From contig JAKAJI010000005.1 of the NCBI GenBank assembly GCA_021813825.1, positions 1-42,736 of the forward strand: a DNA stretch of 42,736 bases, read 5' to 3'. The stretch is from Acidobacteriota bacterium. Lineage in GTDB: Bacteria > Acidobacteriota > Terriglobia > Bryobacterales > Bryobacteraceae. A model generated the notes under the pieces. That model worked only from the letters and a program-made list of their open reading frames with translations, was not told the DNA's origin and searched no databases. The position numbers and the translations under genes are program-made. Numbering within the stretch: position 1 is the first letter of the stretch; every line of letters starts with the position of its first letter. This document shows positions 1,139-25,555 of the stretch, piece after piece.

Positions 1139-2461
1139 TCAGCGTTCGTCGCGGCGGCGGGGCGAGACGGCATCCCAGCGGGGGTCGGCGGTGCTCTTGT
1201 AGTTCTTGGGCAGGGTGCGCCAGTCGGGGCGGCTGATGCCGTTGAGGTCGTAGACGACGCGGCCGTCGCGGAGGGTGAGTTCACAGATGAGCTTTTCGCT
1301 GCCATCCATGCGGGCGCCGTACATGTCGGTGAAGCCGAACTGGCCTTTTTCCAGGCGCAGGACGGCGACATCGGCGGGGGCGCCGACGCTCAAGTTGCCG
1401 AGTTCTTCGTGATGGATTTCTCTGGCCGGGTTCCAGGTGGACTTGGCGATGACGTCGTCGAGCGAAAGGCCGAGGGCGAGGAACTTGCTCATCAGGTTGA
1501 GCATGTCCTTCATGCCAGCGTTCATGCTGGAGATGTGGAGATCGGTGGAGATCGAGTCGGGGAGGAAGCCCTGCTTGATGGCGGGGACGACGACGCGCCA
1601 GGCGAAGCTGCCGCCGCCGTGGCCGACGTCGAAGATGACGCCGCGCTTGCGGCCTTCGATCATGCCTGGATTTACCTCTCCGTTGTCGAGCAGTTCGTGC
1701 CGCAGGCCGGAGTAACAGTGGGTGTAGATGTCACCGGGGCGGAGTTTCTTGGTGACGAGTTCGGCGAGGGGACGCTGGGGCCAGTCCGTGCCGAAGTCAA
1801 TCATGACGGGGATGTGCGCCATTTCACCGGCCTGAACCGCACGCTCGACGGGGGTCCATTCCGGACCGGTGTAGTGGGCACACTTGAAGCCGACGATCAG
1901 GCCTTTGTGACGAAGGGCCATGTCGGAGGCTGAGCGGGGCTCCATGTCGTAGAAGTTGTCCTCGTAGGGCTCGCCGCGCATGCCGGCGCCGACGATGTTG
2001 AGGAAGGCGAGGACGCGGGTCTTGGAGCGGTCGATGACGTGCTGCTTGAAATCTTCGAAGTTGCGCCAACCGGAGGAGCCGGCGTCGGCGACCGTGGTGA
2101 CGCCGGTGCGGAGGGTGAAGCCGTCGGGCCAGACGCTGTTGTCGCCGGCGTAGGAGTGGGCTTCGCCGGTGCTGGCATAGACGTGGACATGGATGTCGAC
2201 GAGGCCAGGGGTGACGTAGAGCCCGTGGACGTCGACCGTTTTCAGGGCGCGGGAAGCGTCGAGATGCTCGGCGACGGCGGCGATGTGGCCATTCTTGATG
2301 CCCACGTCGCGGACGGCGCTGATGCCGTTCTTCGCGTCGATGACGTGGCCGTTTTGCAGCAGGAGATCGTAGTCGTATTGCTGTTGAGCCATGGCAAGAG
2401 AACCGAGGGCGCCGAGAACGAACAATAGCGCTCCTGTGTGTGAGGTGAGGTTTGTTTTCAT
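1139..2461 (-). CDS. Secreted amidohydrolase / deacetylase (dihydroorotase-like)
   Basis: Signal peptide; VTPGLVDIHVHVYA metal-binding motif; GVTTVADAGSSG; STDLHISSMNAGMKD; C-terminal NLSVGAPADVAVLRLEKG. Confidence 0.8.
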   Translation of the reverse strand: MKTNLTSHTGALLFVLGALGSLAMAQQQYDYDLLLQNGHVIDAKNGISAVRDVGIKNGHIAAVAEHLDASRALKTVDVHGLYVTPGLVDIHVHVYASTGEAHSYAGDNSVWPDGFTLRTGVTTVADAGSSGWRNFEDFKQHVIDRSKTRVLAFLNIVGAGMRGEPYEDNFYDMEPRSASDMALRHKGLIVGFKCAHYTGPEWTPVERAVQAGEMAHIPVMIDFGTDWPQRPLAELVTKKLRPGDIYTHCYSGLRHELLDNGEVNPGMIEGRKRGVIFDVGHGGGSFAWRVVVPAIKQGFLPDSISTDLHISSMNAGMKDMLNLMSKFLALGLSLDDVIAKSTWNPAREIHHEELGNLSVGAPADVAVLRLEKGQFGFTDMYGARMDGSEKLICELTLRDGRVVYDLNGISRPDWRTLPKNYKSTADPRWDAVSPRRRDER

Positions 2462-3306
2462 CGCTCCAATTCCACTAAGGCGTAGATGTTTAACTCGGGA
2501 AGCGTGAACTCGGCTGCTTCGGGAGTGAAGGATACATCGAGAAGGCGAACGGGGTCGAGGCCGGAAGCCCAGGCGCGGGCGCGGGAATAGTGGCCGAGGA
2601 CCCGGATGCGGAGTCCTTCGACATGGCGCCGGGCGCCGTCGTAGTTGAGCAGGTGGACCAGGGTGCGCCTGGCGTCGCCTTCCAGGCGGCCGATGACGAC
2701 TTCGCTGCCATAGATGCGCAGCAGGCGTTTGTCGTCGCCGAGGGTCTGCCGGATAAGATGGGCCATGCCGTCGGGGTTGGCGGCGAGCGAGTTGGGGAAC
2801 TGGCTCGAGCCCAGCTTGACGTCGAGCAGGCCGGGTTGCGGGCTGGCGACGCGCTCGAACAACAGGTTGCGGCGCACGAGCAGGTTCATGACTTCGCCGG
2901 CGCGGGGCGTCCCATCATCCTGAAATGCGATGTTGACGAGAGGTTGCATCCCGGCGGCGGAAGGCAGAGTGCGGAGGAAGGCGATCATCGCCTCGAGCGG
3001 CGCCTGGCCGGCGGCGTCGGTGTGGATGCCGGCGTTGGCGGAGAATTCGAACGCTTCTGCCGCGGCGACGGCGGCGCTCAAGCCGGGGGCATCGTAGAAA
3101 AACCGGGCGTTGGGATTGCGAAGGATCCGCGAGCCGTTCGTATTGACCCATGGCGCGGTGGAGGCGGAGGCTTCGTCGATGCGGTAGTTGACGCCGGGGG
3201 TGAGCAGTTTAGTGGCGCCGGCGGGTGGCTCAGCGCTGGAGGCGATTTCGGGAACGGCCGCTTGGATCGCCCCGGCGGCCAGAAGCAAAGCGAGAGTGAG
3301 TCTCAC
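2458..3306 (-). CDS. Secreted protein of unknown function
   Basis: ORF with signal peptide MRLTLALLLAAGAIQA; ATGA-type overlaps with both neighbours; no family recognised with confidence. Confidence 0.7.
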   Translation of the reverse strand: MRLTLALLLAAGAIQAAVPEIASSAEPPAGATKLLTPGVNYRIDEASASTAPWVNTNGSRILRNPNARFFYDAPGLSAAVAAAEAFEFSANAGIHTDAAGQAPLEAMIAFLRTLPSAAGMQPLVNIAFQDDGTPRAGEVMNLLVRRNLLFERVASPQPGLLDVKLGSSQFPNSLAANPDGMAHLIRQTLGDDKRLLRIYGSEVVIGRLEGDARRTLVHLLNYDGARRHVEGLRIRVLGHYSRARAWASGLDPVRLLDVSFTPEAAEFTLPELNIYALVELER

Positions 3307-5419: not shown

Positions 5420-6685
5420 TCAGGCTTTCGCCGCCTGGCTGAGCACTTCCTTCAGGCGGCGGGCCACGATGAGGTCTTCGCCGGGTTGCAGCATCCAGAC
5501 GCCGACTACGATGGTGTTTTCATCCGAGGGCAGGTCCTTGTCGCCCTTGCGGCCCGTGAAGGGGTTGAGTTCGATCGGGGGATCGCCTTCGCGCAACTGG
5601 CGGGCGACTTCCCTGGGTTCGATTTTCACGCGAGCCGGATCGTATTTGAGCAGAAGATGGGGAACGTGGTTGGCGACGGGCGGGACAGCGATGGTAGTCG
5701 TGAGCGTTGGGACGCCGCGGACGTGGGCGGCGATGCGCTCGGCGGTGCGGCGGAACTCGGCTTCCATGCCGGCATCGGATTGAGAGAGGAACCAGTCGAC
5801 GGCGGCGACCATGCCGACGATCTGTTCCTTGGCGACCTTCATGCCGCGGCCGACGGTGTTGGAGTTTGGGTTGTTGTTGCGCGCGGCGGCCTCGATGAGG
5901 TCCTTGCGGCCGAGGAGCAGGCCGGCGTTCTGCGGGCCGCGGATGCCTTTGCCACCGGAGAAGGTGACAAGGTCGAAGCCCATGGCGGTGTAGTTCCAGA
6001 GGTTGGAGATGGGCGGGACGTCGGCGGCGGCGTCGTTGAAGCAGGGAACGTTGTGGGAGTGGGCGATGCGGACCCAATCCTCGCGTGAGATGGGACTTTC
6101 CTGCGCGGCGTTGAAGTAGTGGCACATCACGGTACGTTCGTTGAAGGCGCGCTCGTACTCGTCGATGGTTTCGATGGTGACAAACTCGATGCCGCAGTTG
6201 CGCAGGGCGTGGTCGTACTCATAGCGGTGGGTCTTTTGGACGATGACCTCGTTCTTGAGGCCCTGCATGGAGTTGGGGATGGCTTTAATCGAGTCTTCGT
6301 TGCCGCGGGTGATGCAGGCGGCCATGCCAAGCGTAAGCGCCGAGGCTGCGCCGGCGGTGACGAGCGCCGCTTCGCAGCGGAGGCGTTTGGCGAGGTATTC
6401 GCCCGCCTTGGTCTGCAGTTCCTCGAGCCGGACGGGGTGTTTCGCGGCTTGGTTGACAGCCGCGCGGACCTGCGGCGGCATGACGGCGGCCGTGAGGAAC
6501 GTGTAGGTGCCGGCGGCGTTGATGATTTTTCGGACACCGAGCTTTTCGTAATAGTCGACCGGTTCGGCCTCCCGGCCAGCGGTGGCTCCGGCCTGCGCCG
6601 CGGTTCCGGCCGCCAATGCGCCGCCCGCGGCGCCGAAAAACCGTCTACGAGTTGTTGGTACAAACATGCTGTTGTCGCCTTCCAT
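5420..6685 (-). CDS. PLP-dependent SelA-fold / class V-like enzyme with twin-arginine leader
   Basis: TTRRRFFGAAGGALAAG leader; YYEKLGVRKIINAAGTYT; VTAGAASALTLGMAACITRG; FSGGKGIRGPQNAGLLLGRKDL with the likely PLP lysine (COG1921-like). Confidence 0.83.
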   Translation of the reverse strand: MEGDNSMFVPTTRRRFFGAAGGALAAGTAAQAGATAGREAEPVDYYEKLGVRKIINAAGTYTFLTAAVMPPQVRAAVNQAAKHPVRLEELQTKAGEYLAKRLRCEAALVTAGAASALTLGMAACITRGNEDSIKAIPNSMQGLKNEVIVQKTHRYEYDHALRNCGIEFVTIETIDEYERAFNERTVMCHYFNAAQESPISREDWVRIAHSHNVPCFNDAAADVPPISNLWNYTAMGFDLVTFSGGKGIRGPQNAGLLLGRKDLIEAAARNNNPNSNTVGRGMKVAKEQIVGMVAAVDWFLSQSDAGMEAEFRRTAERIAAHVRGVPTLTTTIAVPPVANHVPHLLLKYDPARVKIEPREVARQLREGDPPIELNPFTGRKGDKDLPSDENTIVVGVWMLQPGEDLIVARRLKEVLSQAAKA

Positions 6686-7214: not shown

Positions 7215-7310
7215 GGCGGGCGGGGCGCGACAGGGTTCGTTCGCCGATTCCGGACCGCTGTTGGCCGAATTACGATGGCGTGGGCAGCGAGGACGGACTA
7301 CGCTGGGACC

Positions 7311-8072
7311 ATGAGTGGCCCCATGCCTCCCTCGCTCGAGGATTTCCGCTGGCGCCGGTACCGCCGCAGAAGAGCGCGGGGCGCCTCCGGGGTGGTCCTG
7401 GGCGCGACGATCATCGCGGTGGGTGTGCTGCTGCTGCTGGACAACCTCGATATCATTCCGGCCGTGAATCTGTGGAATTACTGGCCCGTAATTCTGATCG
7501 CCCTGGGCCTGGCGCGGCTGACGAACACGTCGAGCCCGTCGAGTTTGATCTGGGGCGGGGCGATGACGGCGGCGGGTGCCTTGCTGCTGCTGAATAACCT
7601 GGACCTGCTTCGTTTCCCGGTCCATTTATTCTGGCCGCTGATGGTGATCGCCTTCGGGGCGAGCATGTTGTTCCGGGCCGCGGAGGCTCACCGGTACGCA
7701 GGGGCGCCACCGGGAGGAGCGGTTTGTAACGGACCGAACTTCAGTGTTTGGAGCGTGTTTGGGGGAGTGGAGCGGCGAATTGAGACCGACGACTTCCAAT
7801 CGGCGTATGTTTCGGCCGTGTTTGGGGGCGTGAAGCTGGACCTGCGGCGCGCCCAGATCAAGCAGGGGCGGGCGATTATCGACGTAAACGCGGTGTTTGG
7901 CGGCGTGGAGATGATGGTGCCGGAGAACTGGACCGTGGTGGTGGAGGCGACGGGCGTGTTCGGCGGCATCGAGGATAAGACGCGGCCTCCGCAGCAAGTG
8001 CCCGGGCAGGTGAATCCCGTGCTGGTGGTGACGGGCGCGGCCGCGTTCGGCGGCGTATCGATCGCAAACTAA
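7311..8072 (+). CDS. LiaF-like / DUF5668 membrane protein with C-terminal FGG repeats
   Basis: Two tandem hydrophobic units (VGVLLLLDNLDII..WPVILIALGLARL and AGALLLLNNLDLL..WPLMVIAFGASML) followed by five FGG(V/I) repeats; ATG at 7311 preferred over 7275. Confidence 0.75.
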   Translation: MSGPMPPSLEDFRWRRYRRRRARGASGVVLGATIIAVGVLLLLDNLDIIPAVNLWNYWPVILIALGLARLTNTSSPSSLIWGGAMTAAGALLLLNNLDLLRFPVHLFWPLMVIAFGASMLFRAAEAHRYAGAPPGGAVCNGPNFSVWSVFGGVERRIETDDFQSAYVSAVFGGVKLDLRRAQIKQGRAIIDVNAVFGGVEMMVPENWTVVVEATGVFGGIEDKTRPPQQVPGQVNPVLVVTGAAAFGGVSIAN

Positions 8073-8091: not shown

Positions 8092-9174
8092 ATGCATCCG
8101 TTGTTCGCCAACAAAACGGGGTTGTTGCTGTACCTCGCGCTGTGGATTCCGTTTGCGGCGACGCTGGCTTATCTGCTGTCGGTGACGGGAGGGCTGCCGT
8201 GGCGTGAAGCGGCGTCGATCACCGCTCCTCTGGCAGGGATCTATGCCTTTGTCTGCCTGTCGGCGTGGTATCTGTGCCGGTATCTTCCGCTGGGCGCGGC
8301 CCGGGTTCCTTCGCTCGTGTTGAACCACGGCGAGGCCGCGATCATCGCGGCTCTGCTGTGGGTAGTTGCGGCGAAGGGCCTGTCGGTGCTGCTGGAGCGG
8401 GTATTCGCCGGCTTCGACCGGCGGTTTTCCCATCAACTGCCTTTGCTTTTTGCGATCGGGCTGCAGCTTTACCTGCTTGCGGTGGCGGTGCACTACATTT
8501 TGCTGGGACTGGAGCGGTCCCGCGAGGCCGAACGGCACGCACAGGAGGCGATGCTAGCGGCGCGGGAGGCGGAACTGCGGGCCTTGAAGGCGCAGATCAA
8601 TCCGCACTTTCTGTTCAACAGCCTGAATTCGATCAGCGCGCTGGCGACGATGGATGGATTGCGGGCGCGCGACATGTGCCTGACGCTATCGGATTTTTTG
8701 CGGCGCACGCTGAGCCTGGGGGATAAGGAGACGATCCCGCTCACCGAGGAGGTGGCGATGGCGCAGCTCTATCTGTCGGTGGAAAAGATCCGTTTCGGGG
8801 CGCGGTTGCGGTTTGAAACGAGGCTTGACGGGGAGTGCGCGGCGTGTCCGGTGCCGCCGCTGATCCTGCAGCCGTTGATTGAGAATGCGGTGAAGCACGG
8901 GGTGGCGGGGATGTTGGAGGGGGGCTCGATCGCGCTGGCCGCGCGGTGTGGCAACGGTTGGCTGACGGTCACGGTGGAAAACGATTTCGATCCCGAAGCG
9001 GAGGCGGCGTCGCGAACCGGGATCGGGCTGGAGAATGTGCGGTCGCGGCTGCGGGCACGGTACTCGGGCGAAGCGTCGTTGCGGGCGTCGGCAACGGAGG
9101 CGACCTACCGCGCCGAACTGGTTCTTCCCTGCCCCAGCCACGGCCGCAGGACGGCGGAGAGTTGGCCATCATGA
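8092..9174 (+). CDS. LytS-family membrane sensor histidine kinase
   Basis: Multiple TM segments; LKAQINPHFLFNSLNSISALATMD (His_kinase family motif); PPLILQPLIENAVKHGV; GIGLENVRSRL. Confidence 0.9.
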   Translation: MHPLFANKTGLLLYLALWIPFAATLAYLLSVTGGLPWREAASITAPLAGIYAFVCLSAWYLCRYLPLGAARVPSLVLNHGEAAIIAALLWVVAAKGLSVLLERVFAGFDRRFSHQLPLLFAIGLQLYLLAVAVHYILLGLERSREAERHAQEAMLAAREAELRALKAQINPHFLFNSLNSISALATMDGLRARDMCLTLSDFLRRTLSLGDKETIPLTEEVAMAQLYLSVEKIRFGARLRFETRLDGECAACPVPPLILQPLIENAVKHGVAGMLEGGSIALAARCGNGWLTVTVENDFDPEAEAASRTGIGLENVRSRLRARYSGEASLRASATEATYRAELVLPCPSHGRRTAESWPS

Positions 9175-9189
9175 GGAGAGAGCGGACCG

Positions 9190-10824
9190 ATGTCTGAATT
9201 CGAGGAAGGCGCGATGCTGAAGCATTTCCGGATCGTGTCGAAGCTCGGCGAGGGCGGGATGGGCGCGGTCTATCTGGCGCGCGATACGCGCCTGGACCGG
9301 AATGTGGCCATCAAGCTTTTGACGGCGGAATTGGCCGGCGATACGCGCCATGTGGAGCGGTTCCGGCAGGAGGCGCGGCTGGCTTCGAGCCTGAATCATC
9401 CGAACATCGCTCAGGTCTACGAGACCGGCGAGCACGAAGGCGCTCCGTTTCTGGTGATGGAGTATGTGGAAGGCGAGCCGCTGACGGCGCGAATCGCGCG
9501 CGGGCCGATGAAGCCGGCCGAGGTGCTCGATGCCGGCGCTCAGGCTGCCGACGCGCTCGATGCCGCGCACTCGCAAGGCATTGTGCACCGCGACATCAAG
9601 CCGGCGAACCTGATCTTCGACGCGCGAGGGCGGTTAAAGATATTGGACTTCGGGCTGGCGCGGAGGGAAGCGCAGGCGGCCGCGCGGGAGCCGGGAGACG
9701 GGGAAACGGTGCTGATGACGACCGGGAACCTGGTGCTCGGCACGGTCCACTACATGAGCCCGGAGCAGGCGCTGGGGCACGAGGTGGACCACCGCAGCGA
9801 TCTGTTCAGCCTGGGCGTGGTGCTGTATGAAATGTGCGCGGGGCGGCTTCCCTTTGACGGCGAGAACTCGCAGCAGGTGATTGCGAAAATCCTTTCCAGC
9901 CAGCCCGAGGCGGTGGCGCGGTTCAACTATGAGGTGCCGGAAGGGCTGGACCGCTTGATTCGGAAGTGTCTCGAGAAAGAGCGCACGCGGCGGTATCAAT
10001 CGGCTCGGGAGTTGCTAGTGGATCTGGAAAATCTGCGCCGCGACACCGGCAGCCGGGCGGCGGCTTCCGTGGTTGCGCCGAGTGTGCTGCGCGTGGTGAT
10101 CGTGGACGACGAGGAACTGGCGCGGGGACTTCTGCGCGAGTACATCCGCGCGACGCCGGGGATTGAACTGGTGGCGGAGTGCGCCAACGGTTTTGAGGCC
10201 GCCAAGATGATTCCGGCGCTTAAGCCGGACGTGGTGATTCTGGACGTGCAAATGCCGAAGCTCAATGGTTTCGAGGTGCTCGAGCTGATCGGCACGGAAA
10301 CGCCGGTGATTTTTGCTACCGCGTTTGACGATTATGCGATGCGCGCTTTCGACGCCAATGCGGTGGATTACTTGCTGAAACCGTTCAGCCTGGAGCGGTT
10401 CCAGACAGCGATCGGGCGGGTGCGGCAGCGGACAGGCCAACCGATGCCTTCTCCCACTCAGCTTGCCGCCGCGGCGCGCGCGCCGCAGGAATTTGTCGAC
10501 CGCATCGTGGTGAAGGACGGCTCGCGGGTCCACATTGTGCCGGTGAGCAAACTGGAATACGCCGAGGCGCAGGACGATTACGTGTCGCTGCATAGCGAGG
10601 GCAAGAGCTATCTGAAGCAGCAGACGATTTCGAGTCTGGAGGCGAGCCTGGATCCGCGGCGGTTCGTGCGGGTGCACCGGTCATACCTGGTGAACATCGA
10701 GTGCGTGGCGCGGATCGAGCCATACGCCAAAGACAGCCGCGTGGCGGTGCTTACGAGCGGGGCGCAACTTGCGGTGAGCCGGGCGGGCTACGACCGGCTT
10801 CGGGCGCTGCTCGAAGGAAGGTAA
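9190..10824 (+). CDS. Ser/Thr protein kinase - receiver - LytTR DNA-binding fusion
   Basis: One open frame of 544 aa. Kinase: [47 protein letters not shown]. Receiver: [32 protein letters not shown]. Lyt[35 protein letters not shown]. Confidence 0.92.
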
Positions 10825-23250: not shown

Positions 23251-23916
23251 CTAGACCGGCGCCGGGATCTGAATAATCTTCTTTTGAATCGCGTACTGAA
23301 CCAACTGGGCTTTGTTGTGAATGTCGAGCTTTCGCATGAGGTTGAACTTGTGCGCTTCGATGGTTTTCACGCTCAGGTTCAGGTCGCAGGCGATCTCCTT
23401 CACGGATTTTCCCTCGGCGAGAAACTTGATGACTTCCTTTTCGCGCGGCGTGAGGCTGGCCAGACGCGAGCGGGGCGCAGCGGAGCGGATATGATTGCGG
23501 AACCCGTCCACGAGTTGCGAGAGCATGCGAGGGCTGACGTAATTCCCGCCGCGAGCCACATCGCGGACCGCACCGGCGAGTTGGCTTGCCGGGCTGTCCT
23601 TGAGGATATAGCCGCTGGCTCCTACTTCCATCGCCTCGACGAGATAGTCTTCGTCGTCGTACATCGTGAGGAAGACAATGTGTGTTTCCGGATGGGTACG
23701 GCGAATCTGCCGTGTGGCTTCGAAGCTGCTCAGGCCGTTCATGCCGATATCAAAGAGCACAACATCGGGGTGTGCCTGGGTGATGAGCGCAATCGCCTCG
23801 GAGGCGCTGGACGCCTCGCCCATCACTTCCATATCCGGTTCTGCTGACAGCAGATTCCGGATCCCCTGACGGAAGAGCGTGTGGTCATCCGCAAGCACGA
23901 TTCGAATCTTCGACAT
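23251..23916 (-). CDS. NarL/FixJ family response regulator (REC + LuxR HTH)
   Basis: IRIVLADDHTLFRQGIRNLL, DVVLFDIGMNGLSSFEAT, GYILKDSPA, SLTPREKEVIKFLAEGKSVKEIACDLNLSVKTIEAHKFNLMRKL. Confidence 0.93.
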   Translation of the reverse strand: MSKIRIVLADDHTLFRQGIRNLLSAEPDMEVMGEASSASEAIALITQAHPDVVLFDIGMNGLSSFEATRQIRRTHPETHIVFLTMYDDEDYLVEAMEVGASGYILKDSPASQLAGAVRDVARGGNYVSPRMLSQLVDGFRNHIRSAAPRSRLASLTPREKEVIKFLAEGKSVKEIACDLNLSVKTIEAHKFNLMRKLDIHNKAQLVQYAIQKKIIQIPAPV

Positions 23917-25555
23917 GAGACTTCCCTTCTGGCATATTTGAGCTGGTGCCCTCGGTGAGGATTGTCAGCGCCGGAGCGCCTTCATCGGCCACCGGGATCG
24001 AGACGCGGAGCGTGGTTCCCTGGCCCGCTTTGCGGCGTGTGCCGGGCCGGCGAGAGTCGACGCTGAACTGACCGCCGAGCAGCATCACCCGCTCACGCAT
24101 GCCGGCCAAGCCGAAGGAGCCGCCTCGGTGAAACGCCTCGTTGATGTCGAACCCTACGCCGTTGTCCTCCACGATCACCCTGACCGACTCATCGGCAAGT
24201 TCCACCGAAAGGTTTACAGCGGTCGCCTGTGAGTGCCGGGCGATGTTGTTACAGCACTCCTGAACAATGCGGTAGACGGTAATCTCGACCTCCTGCCGCA
24301 GGCGGCCCAGATGGCCGGAGCGAAGCCGGACGCGGCCGGGGAAGACGTCGCGGAAGCGCTGGACGAGTTGGCGCAGGGCGGCTTCGAGGCCCATCTGCGA
24401 TAACAGCGACGGGCTGAGGGCGGCAATGAGCCGCCGGGTTTCGAGAATGGCGCGTTCGGTTAGCTGCCGTGTCTCGGCGATGCCGGCGCGCAGTCCTGGA
24501 TCGCGGGCCGCCTCGGCCGCCGCCTCAAGAATTTCCAACCGCAGCCGGATGCACAGCAGCGACTGGCCGGCTTCGTCATGCAGATCCCGGCTGATTCGGC
24601 GCCGTTCCGCCTCCTCGACTTGAATCATCCGTCGTGCCAGGCGGCGTACCTGTTCCTCGCTTTGCGCCAGATTTTCCGTGAGCCGGAGCTTATCGAGGGC
24701 GAGGACACAACGCTCGGCGGCTGCCTTCAGCAGTTCCCGCTCCCGCGGGAGGCTGCCGTAAACCTTCTTGAAGCGGAACTGCACGACGCCCCGCGGGCAG
24801 GTAGGACCCGGCAACGGCAAGGACCATACGGCGCCCGAGCCCTCCGCCCAGTCCGGTTCGAGCACGCAGTCTTTGGCTTCTTTGAGGGCGTCTTTGGGAG
24901 AAAAATCGAGAAAGGAAGACAGGCGCCCGGCGCGGGCGGCATTCACCCGGAAGGATCCATGCGCGGATCCGTGCGTCACAGCCCGGAGAACCCAGCCGCC
25001 GGGGTCCTCGACGTCCGCCAGGTAGAGCCTTGCCGCATCCGCGCGGCAGTAGCGTGCGAGCGTGGCCAGGAAGCGCTCCAGCAGGTCCCGGGCGCTTCGG
25101 GCCGACAGTTCGTCGTGAGACAGGTCCAGAAGCGTCTGTGCCTCGGTCTCACGAACCTGGTAAGCGGCGTCGTTGAGCACGATGCAGGTGCGGAAATGGA
25201 GCTGTTCGGCGGCCGCGCGCATCCTGGCGGCTACGGCCGGCGCGAGCGAGCGCAGCAGGGGAGCAAGCAAGCGGTGGTATTCGAGCAACGTGGCGGCCGC
25301 GCGGTCCGGCGAGGTCTGCAATTTCGCCAGCCGGCGGCCGTTGTATTCAACCTGCTCGAGAAAATCCTCAAGCCGCCTGCCGGCAGCCAGTATCTCGGCC
25401 GCGGCGCCGATGGTCATCCGCGACAGCGCGGCGACGGAGAGTGGATCGTACCCATTCCGGCGAAGAATTCCTTGATAGAGGCGGTCGAACCGCGCATGTT
25501 CGCGCTGCAGCCACTTCGCGAAGCTTGTGACCGGATCGTTTTTTTGAACTGCCAT
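23885..25555 (-). CDS. Soluble NarX/DegS-type sensor histidine kinase with GAF-like region
   Basis: EEAERRRISRDLHDEAGQSLLCIRLRLEIL (HisKA_3), TVYRIVQECCNNIARHSQAT, VIVEDNGVGFD, GGSFGLAGMRERVMLLGG; overlaps the response regulator by 32 nt. Confidence 0.9.
   Translation of the reverse strand: MAVQKNDPVTSFAKWLQREHARFDRLYQGILRRNGYDPLSVAALSRMTIGAAAEILAAGRRLEDFLEQVEYNGRRLAKLQTSPDRAAATLLEYHRLLAPLLRSLAPAVAARMRAAAEQLHFRTCIVLNDAAYQVRETEAQTLLDLSHDELSARSARDLLERFLATLARYCRADAARLYLADVEDPGGWVLRAVTHGSAHGSFRVNAARAGRLSSFLDFSPKDALKEAKDCVLEPDWAEGSGAVWSLPLPGPTCPRGVVQFRFKKVYGSLPRERELLKAAAERCVLALDKLRLTENLAQSEEQVRRLARRMIQVEEAERRRISRDLHDEAGQSLLCIRLRLEILEAAAEAARDPGLRAGIAETRQLTERAILETRRLIAALSPSLLSQMGLEAALRQLVQRFRDVFPGRVRLRSGHLGRLRQEVEITVYRIVQECCNNIARHSQATAVNLSVELADESVRVIVEDNGVGFDINEAFHRGGSFGLAGMRERVMLLGGQFSVDSRRPGTRRKAGQGTTLRVSIPVADEGAPALTILTEGTSSNMPEGKSHVEDSNRACG

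Follow-up and report, generated by a model that had tools for sequence, protein, structure and literature searches.

A single protein encoded in the window, the 42,736-nt stretch of DNA that was analysed, joins a Hanks-type Ser/Thr kinase to a two-component receiver and a LytTR DNA-binding domain, and in some soil-type Acidobacteriota a DNA-binding protein of an envelope operon apparently unites two phosphorylation systems that are usually separate. Cross-talk between Hanks kinases and two-component systems is mostly known from separate proteins of Gram-positive pathogens, in which meaningful and incidental cross-phosphorylation are hard to distinguish. The fusions described here appear to have joined the two systems at least twice on one type of regulator, and to have done so in environmental bacteria. 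Unfused sisters of these proteins offer natural controls, and the candidate operator, a short one, can be assayed.

The ORF runs unbroken from ATG to stop, and a Pfam search of it found the kinase, receiver and LytTR families, all well over their curated cut-offs (Table 1). The Gly-loop, the VAIK Lys and the HRD, DFG and SPE motifs are all present in the kinase domain, and the complete receiver (DD, D, T, K) and C-terminal LytTR domain match those of LytTR response regulators. In an alignment of 26 family members, one of which ends at a contig end, the kinase residues K42, E61, D135, N140 and D153 and the receiver residues D306, D307, D352, T377 and K397 showed no variation wherever the position was present. 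No transmembrane segment was detected in the protein by hydropathy, the maximum 19-residue value being 1.44. These results confirm the initial annotation, which had read the ORF as an intact kinase, a complete receiver and a LytTR domain without a membrane segment, bringing Ser/Thr and His-Asp phosphorylation onto one putative transcription factor. The usual LytTR regulator has an N-terminal receiver with nothing before it; since a kinase stands in front of the receiver here, the protein is a variant and not a standard LytTR regulator. Another receiver-domain match in the window (23554-24030, minus strand) is 34% identical to the fusion receiver and has an in-frame TGA inside the matched stretch.

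Table 1. Features of the fusion operon in the window (all on the plus strand)
Feature	Position	Strand	Evidence and details
Putative LytTR operator	7239..7268	+	Direct repeat, GTTCGCCGA (7239-7247) - N12 - GTTGGCCGA (7260-7268), 21 bp spacing
LiaF-like membrane protein	7275..8072	+	PF18917 E=5.8e-21, PF22570 E=5.7e-17, PF09922 E=2e-10
LytS-type sensor histidine kinase	8092..9174	+	PF06580 E=2.1e-25; H172 at 8605-8607
Hanks kinase - receiver - LytTR fusion protein (544 aa)	9190..10824	+	Single ORF, Pfam
Hanks Ser/Thr kinase domain (aa 14-274)	9229..10011	+	Pkinase PF00069 E=2e-52; nearest solved structure PknB
Kinase residues	K42 9313-9315, D135 9592-9594, activation-loop T177 9718-9720	+	
Variable linker (aa 284-300)	10039..10089	+	Alignment; dN/dS
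Receiver domain (aa 302-408)	10093..10413	+	Response_reg PF00072 E=9.4e-25; phospho-acceptor D352 10243-10245, K397 10378-10380
LytTR DNA-binding domain (aa 446-541)	10525..10812	+	LytTR PF04397 E=2e-23

Of the order's 257 genomes, 25, from about ten genera, carry the fusion; 24 of these exceeded the search threshold (the copy in G022 ends at a contig end) and the other is G091, whose match is split. A named deposited example is JAIQFJ010000006.1 of Terriglobia bacterium SRVP_25 (L043). The tree position of a Bryobacterales regulator (L045) suggests that the window's family lies in or near the Bryobacterales. A second Acidobacteriota family (f42) has the same kinase-receiver-LytTR architecture in 7 of 14 genomes. 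The source genome is fragmented (563 contigs), and a sequencing or assembly error had been named as a possible origin of the fusion; against this stand the identical architecture in all these independent genomes and a copy (L023) lying within a 6.18-Mb contig of a four-contig genome (G064). We therefore rejected an assembly artefact, and the joining of neighbouring genes by chance or by assembly is in our judgement next to inconceivable.

In a sample of 396 genomes from across the phylum, two carried the fusion, and a looser threshold gave no additional receiver-LytTR fusion; phyla beyond the Acidobacteriota were sampled by one pattern scan only, among the matches listed. Several candidates were discarded: five long kinase-receiver matches (G431, G377, G329, G447 and G558) had no receiver-LytTR match in the kinase ORF, and the long regulator ORFs L054, L065, L073, L109, L185, L188, L190-L192 and L196 had no Pfam domain before the receiver. 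Text searches, with subscription papers and domain databases outside their scope, did not turn up any published account of a protein with this Hanks kinase - receiver - LytTR order. Within this scope the architecture is unusual, as the initial annotation had held. Its reading of the architecture, the likely partner kinase and the rarity stood, while the protein proved to belong to a conserved family and not to be a singleton. One census of two-component proteins excluded those annotated as serine/threonine kinases (PMC4558063), so such fusions may be overlooked.

The fusion gene is the third of three genes in the order LiaF-like protein, LytS-type histidine kinase and regulator, separated by gaps of 19 and 15 bp. 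The LiaF-like ORF may in fact start at the ATG at 7311, and the histidine kinase has several N-terminal hydrophobic segments by hydropathy. The same module occurs in most fused loci and in unfused loci of the window's family, with the LiaF-like gene in the matching position in most relatives, and it is found without the Ser/Thr kinase in other Acidobacteriota, in Bacteroidota and in Pseudomonadota. The H-box histidine is kept in all 143 aligned histidine kinase homologues, 39 of 39 beside fused regulators and 104 of 104 others. The 15-bp gap, and an adjacency that holds in relatives whether or not they have the Ser/Thr kinase, mark this histidine kinase, which the initial annotation had named for a phosphotransfer test, as the likely partner of the fusion protein. 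The pairing is not always operonic, since in G064 the best histidine kinase homologue lies 156 kb from the fusion gene on one contig; in G107 the two genes are on separate contigs. The three-gene system probably senses cell-envelope stress. Elsewhere in the window, an ORF at 5420-6685 (minus strand) encodes a SelA-like (PF03841) protein whose N-terminus resembles a twin-arginine signal sequence, an odd combination.

A search for 9-bp repeats with at most one mismatch upstream of liaF found a spacing of 21 in 38 of 87 loci and each other spacing from 10 to 44 in 1-14, the 87 upstream regions including a few duplicates of one locus. LytTR proteins bind pairs of direct repeats spaced by roughly two turns of the helix, and the 21-bp-spaced repeat is, from its sequence, probably a LytTR operator. 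Its consensus, RTTYRCCGA-N12-RTTYRCCGA, is common to fused and unfused Acidobacteriota; since the spacing is also of the LytTR type, the kinase seems to have left DNA recognition as it was, and with the repeat upstream of liaF the operon is probably autoregulated. Among the 87 regions, the repeat at spacing 21 was not found in the f42 loci or in several fused loci. Copies resembling TTTACCGA occur in Bacteroidota, where L057, L058, L064, L083, L086, L089, L095 and L103 have the module with such a 21-bp-spaced repeat upstream of liaF; this recurring repeat is apparently a widespread operator and could by itself define a regulon. A regulon search of the window's own genome gave 57 places with at most two mismatches against 8 for a reversed control, only 6 having at most one mismatch. 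One other site of the latter kind was examined (C112), and it lies within a long opposite-strand ORF that reads like a TonB-dependent receptor. A scan for sigma-70 promoters gave no match on the operon strand.

By sequence, the solved structure closest to the fused kinase domain is that of PknB (E=1e-58), and the NCBIfam model PknB_PASTA_kin scored 331 bits for the window protein against the 450 required. Thr or Ser occupies the activation-loop position of T177 in 26 of 26 family members, this position being equated with PknB T171 by our own reading of the alignment. Judged by these residues, the fused kinase apparently has the features of an active enzyme. Comparison of the window protein with its two nearest relatives gave dN/dS values of 0.075-0.081 for the kinase, 0.03-0.05 for the receiver and LytTR domains and 0.28-0.50 for the linker, so purifying selection on the kinase is strong; the variable linker at aa 284-300 had 0.17-0.50. 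Of the closest stand-alone kinases looked at (L029, L209, L210 and L150), most have a TPR region at the C-terminus; the receiver-LytTR part thus occupies the place of a regulatory region in these relatives. Some members depart from this picture. L028 (G091, 1495-3057) has a fused kinase without about 25 C-lobe residues on a long branch, and this kinase is probably decaying and heading for loss. HCD replaces HRD in the fused kinases L022 and L023 (G107 and G064). The 517-aa protein L203 (G545:C65, 1178-2728) has a kinase domain very near the fused kinases, and its C-terminal part, about 220 aa long, matched no Pfam family.

The kinase tree places the window family's fused kinases in one clade (support 99/92) among stand-alone kinases of that family, several of which have TPR regions. 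The f42 fused kinases form a separate clade (96/90), to which the stand-alone TPR kinase L150 is sister (100/99). Placing all fused kinases in one clade was rejected (p-AU 1.7e-6 with the fuller stand-alone set, 1e-40 with the first set). As the f42 kinase comes from another branch of the tree, there were at least two fusions. The test did not reject a looser clade that takes in L029 and L150, the stand-alone sisters (p 0.23), so one ancient fusion, followed by loss of the regulator part in kinases of the L029/L150 type, is a possible but less likely history. In both families the receiver-LytTR part falls within a single set of related regulators, and monophyly in that set was rejected both for all fused sequences (p 5e-80) and for those of the window's family (p 4e-7). 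Several kinase losses are probable within the window's family: the unfused L034 and L035 are nested in a clade of fused relatives, and at these loci the histidine kinase gene is followed immediately by the start of the regulator. It is possible that transfer of an unfused form of the regulator, and not kinase loss, explains these two. Two kinase gains and several losses in the window's family would be the simplest reading of the trees. Neither the origins, at least two in number, nor the probable repeated losses, nor the LiaF-HK-LytTR operon with its putative operator had been foreseen in the initial annotation. A second, unfused relative of the receiver-LytTR regulator was seen in f42 (L188, G322:C64; L185, G650:C379), and in G322 it coexists with the fused regulator.

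We tentatively propose, with a confidence close to but short of even, that the protein is a LiaF/HK/LytTR regulator that gained an active PknB-like kinase, in which receiver-driven dimerisation switches the kinase and yields two outputs. LiaF and the membrane histidine kinase would sense the cell envelope, and the histidine kinase would phosphorylate D352. Phosphorylated receivers would dimerise, and the LytTR domains would bind the 21-bp-spaced candidate operator upstream of liaF for autoregulation; dimerisation would also juxtapose the two tethered Ser/Thr kinase domains, allowing autophosphorylation of the activation loop at T177 and giving an active kinase. A single signal would then act both on transcription and, through Ser/Thr phosphorylation, on the regulator itself or on other proteins, all of them presumptive substrates, and by analogy the receiver would control the kinase and not the reverse. 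The domains and motifs, the operon gaps, the LiaF-HK-regulator adjacency in several phyla, the kept H-box, the repeat in 38 of 87 loci, the kinase dN/dS and the 26 of 26 activation-loop T/S count for this mechanism; the repeat missing in f42 and several fused loci and the distant histidine kinase of G064 count against it. The wider proposition, that Asp and Ser/Thr phosphorylation control each other in one DNA-binding protein and do so in two lineages that independently put different Hanks branches on related regulators of one envelope-stress module, we hold with somewhat less than even confidence.

The fused kinase could instead phosphorylate the receiver or LytTR domain of the same protein, in cis or across a dimer, and so tune DNA binding as a one-protein version of StkP-ComE. 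Tethering would give a high local concentration, StkP phosphorylation of ComE Thr128 in the receiver increases dimerisation and DNA affinity (PMC6010298), and Stk1 phosphorylates four Thr of VraR, the regulator of the LiaF-type VraTSR (PMC4601284). LytTR T479 is present in 25 of 25 and 7 of 7 fused regulators compared with 82-85% of unfused ones, but the comparison of fused and unfused regulators revealed no receiver or LytTR Ser/Thr clearly specific to the fused proteins, nothing is conserved at the end of receiver helix 5, the site of ComE Thr128, and the linkers are variable. We regard this reading, the main rival, as conceivable though rather doubtful. The absence of a clear fusion-specific Ser/Thr and the survival of the regulator without the kinase are what one would expect of a kinase added as a further output, and the active-kinase features, together with the TPR regions that relatives have in place of receiver-LytTR, favour receiver-controlled dimerisation. 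A kinase domain that serves chiefly for docking, as a scaffold or for signal binding, with catalysis of little weight, is unlikely: the drift in a few members (G091, G064 and G107) and the absence of the kinase from many relatives, which makes it dispensable for the module, would fit, but the catalytic K, D, N and DFG are invariant in the family and the kinase dN/dS is about 0.08.

Among known systems, in StkP-ComE of Streptococcus pneumoniae a Hanks kinase likewise acts on a regulator of the receiver-LytTR type, which is also served by the histidine kinase ComD (PMC6010298). StkP and ComE are two proteins, whereas in the window the kinase lies within the regulator and has no transmembrane segment, and no Ser/Thr is conserved at a place like that of ComE Thr128. 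The LiaFSR and VraTSR modules combine a LiaF-type membrane protein, a histidine kinase and a regulator, as the window operon does, and one paper mentions LytTR in LiaF-type modules of Firmicutes (PMC11237479). LiaR and VraR are described as HTH-type regulators, with no kinase on either in these descriptions (PMC11237479, PMC4601284). The window operon, with its LiaF-like gene beside a histidine kinase and a response regulator, resembles LiaFSR but is not a member, because its regulator is of the LytTR type and its histidine kinase of the LytS type (PF06580). PknB/Stk1 PASTA kinases have a transmembrane segment and PASTA repeats, and the window protein has neither. BtsS/BtsR, YpdA/YpdB, AgrA and LytSR share the histidine kinase type and the receiver-LytTR order with the window system, the best receiver-LytTR model for the window protein being BtsR (167 bits, where the cut-off is 246); to our knowledge, no regulator of the BtsR, YpdB, AgrA or LytSR type carries an N-terminal Hanks kinase.
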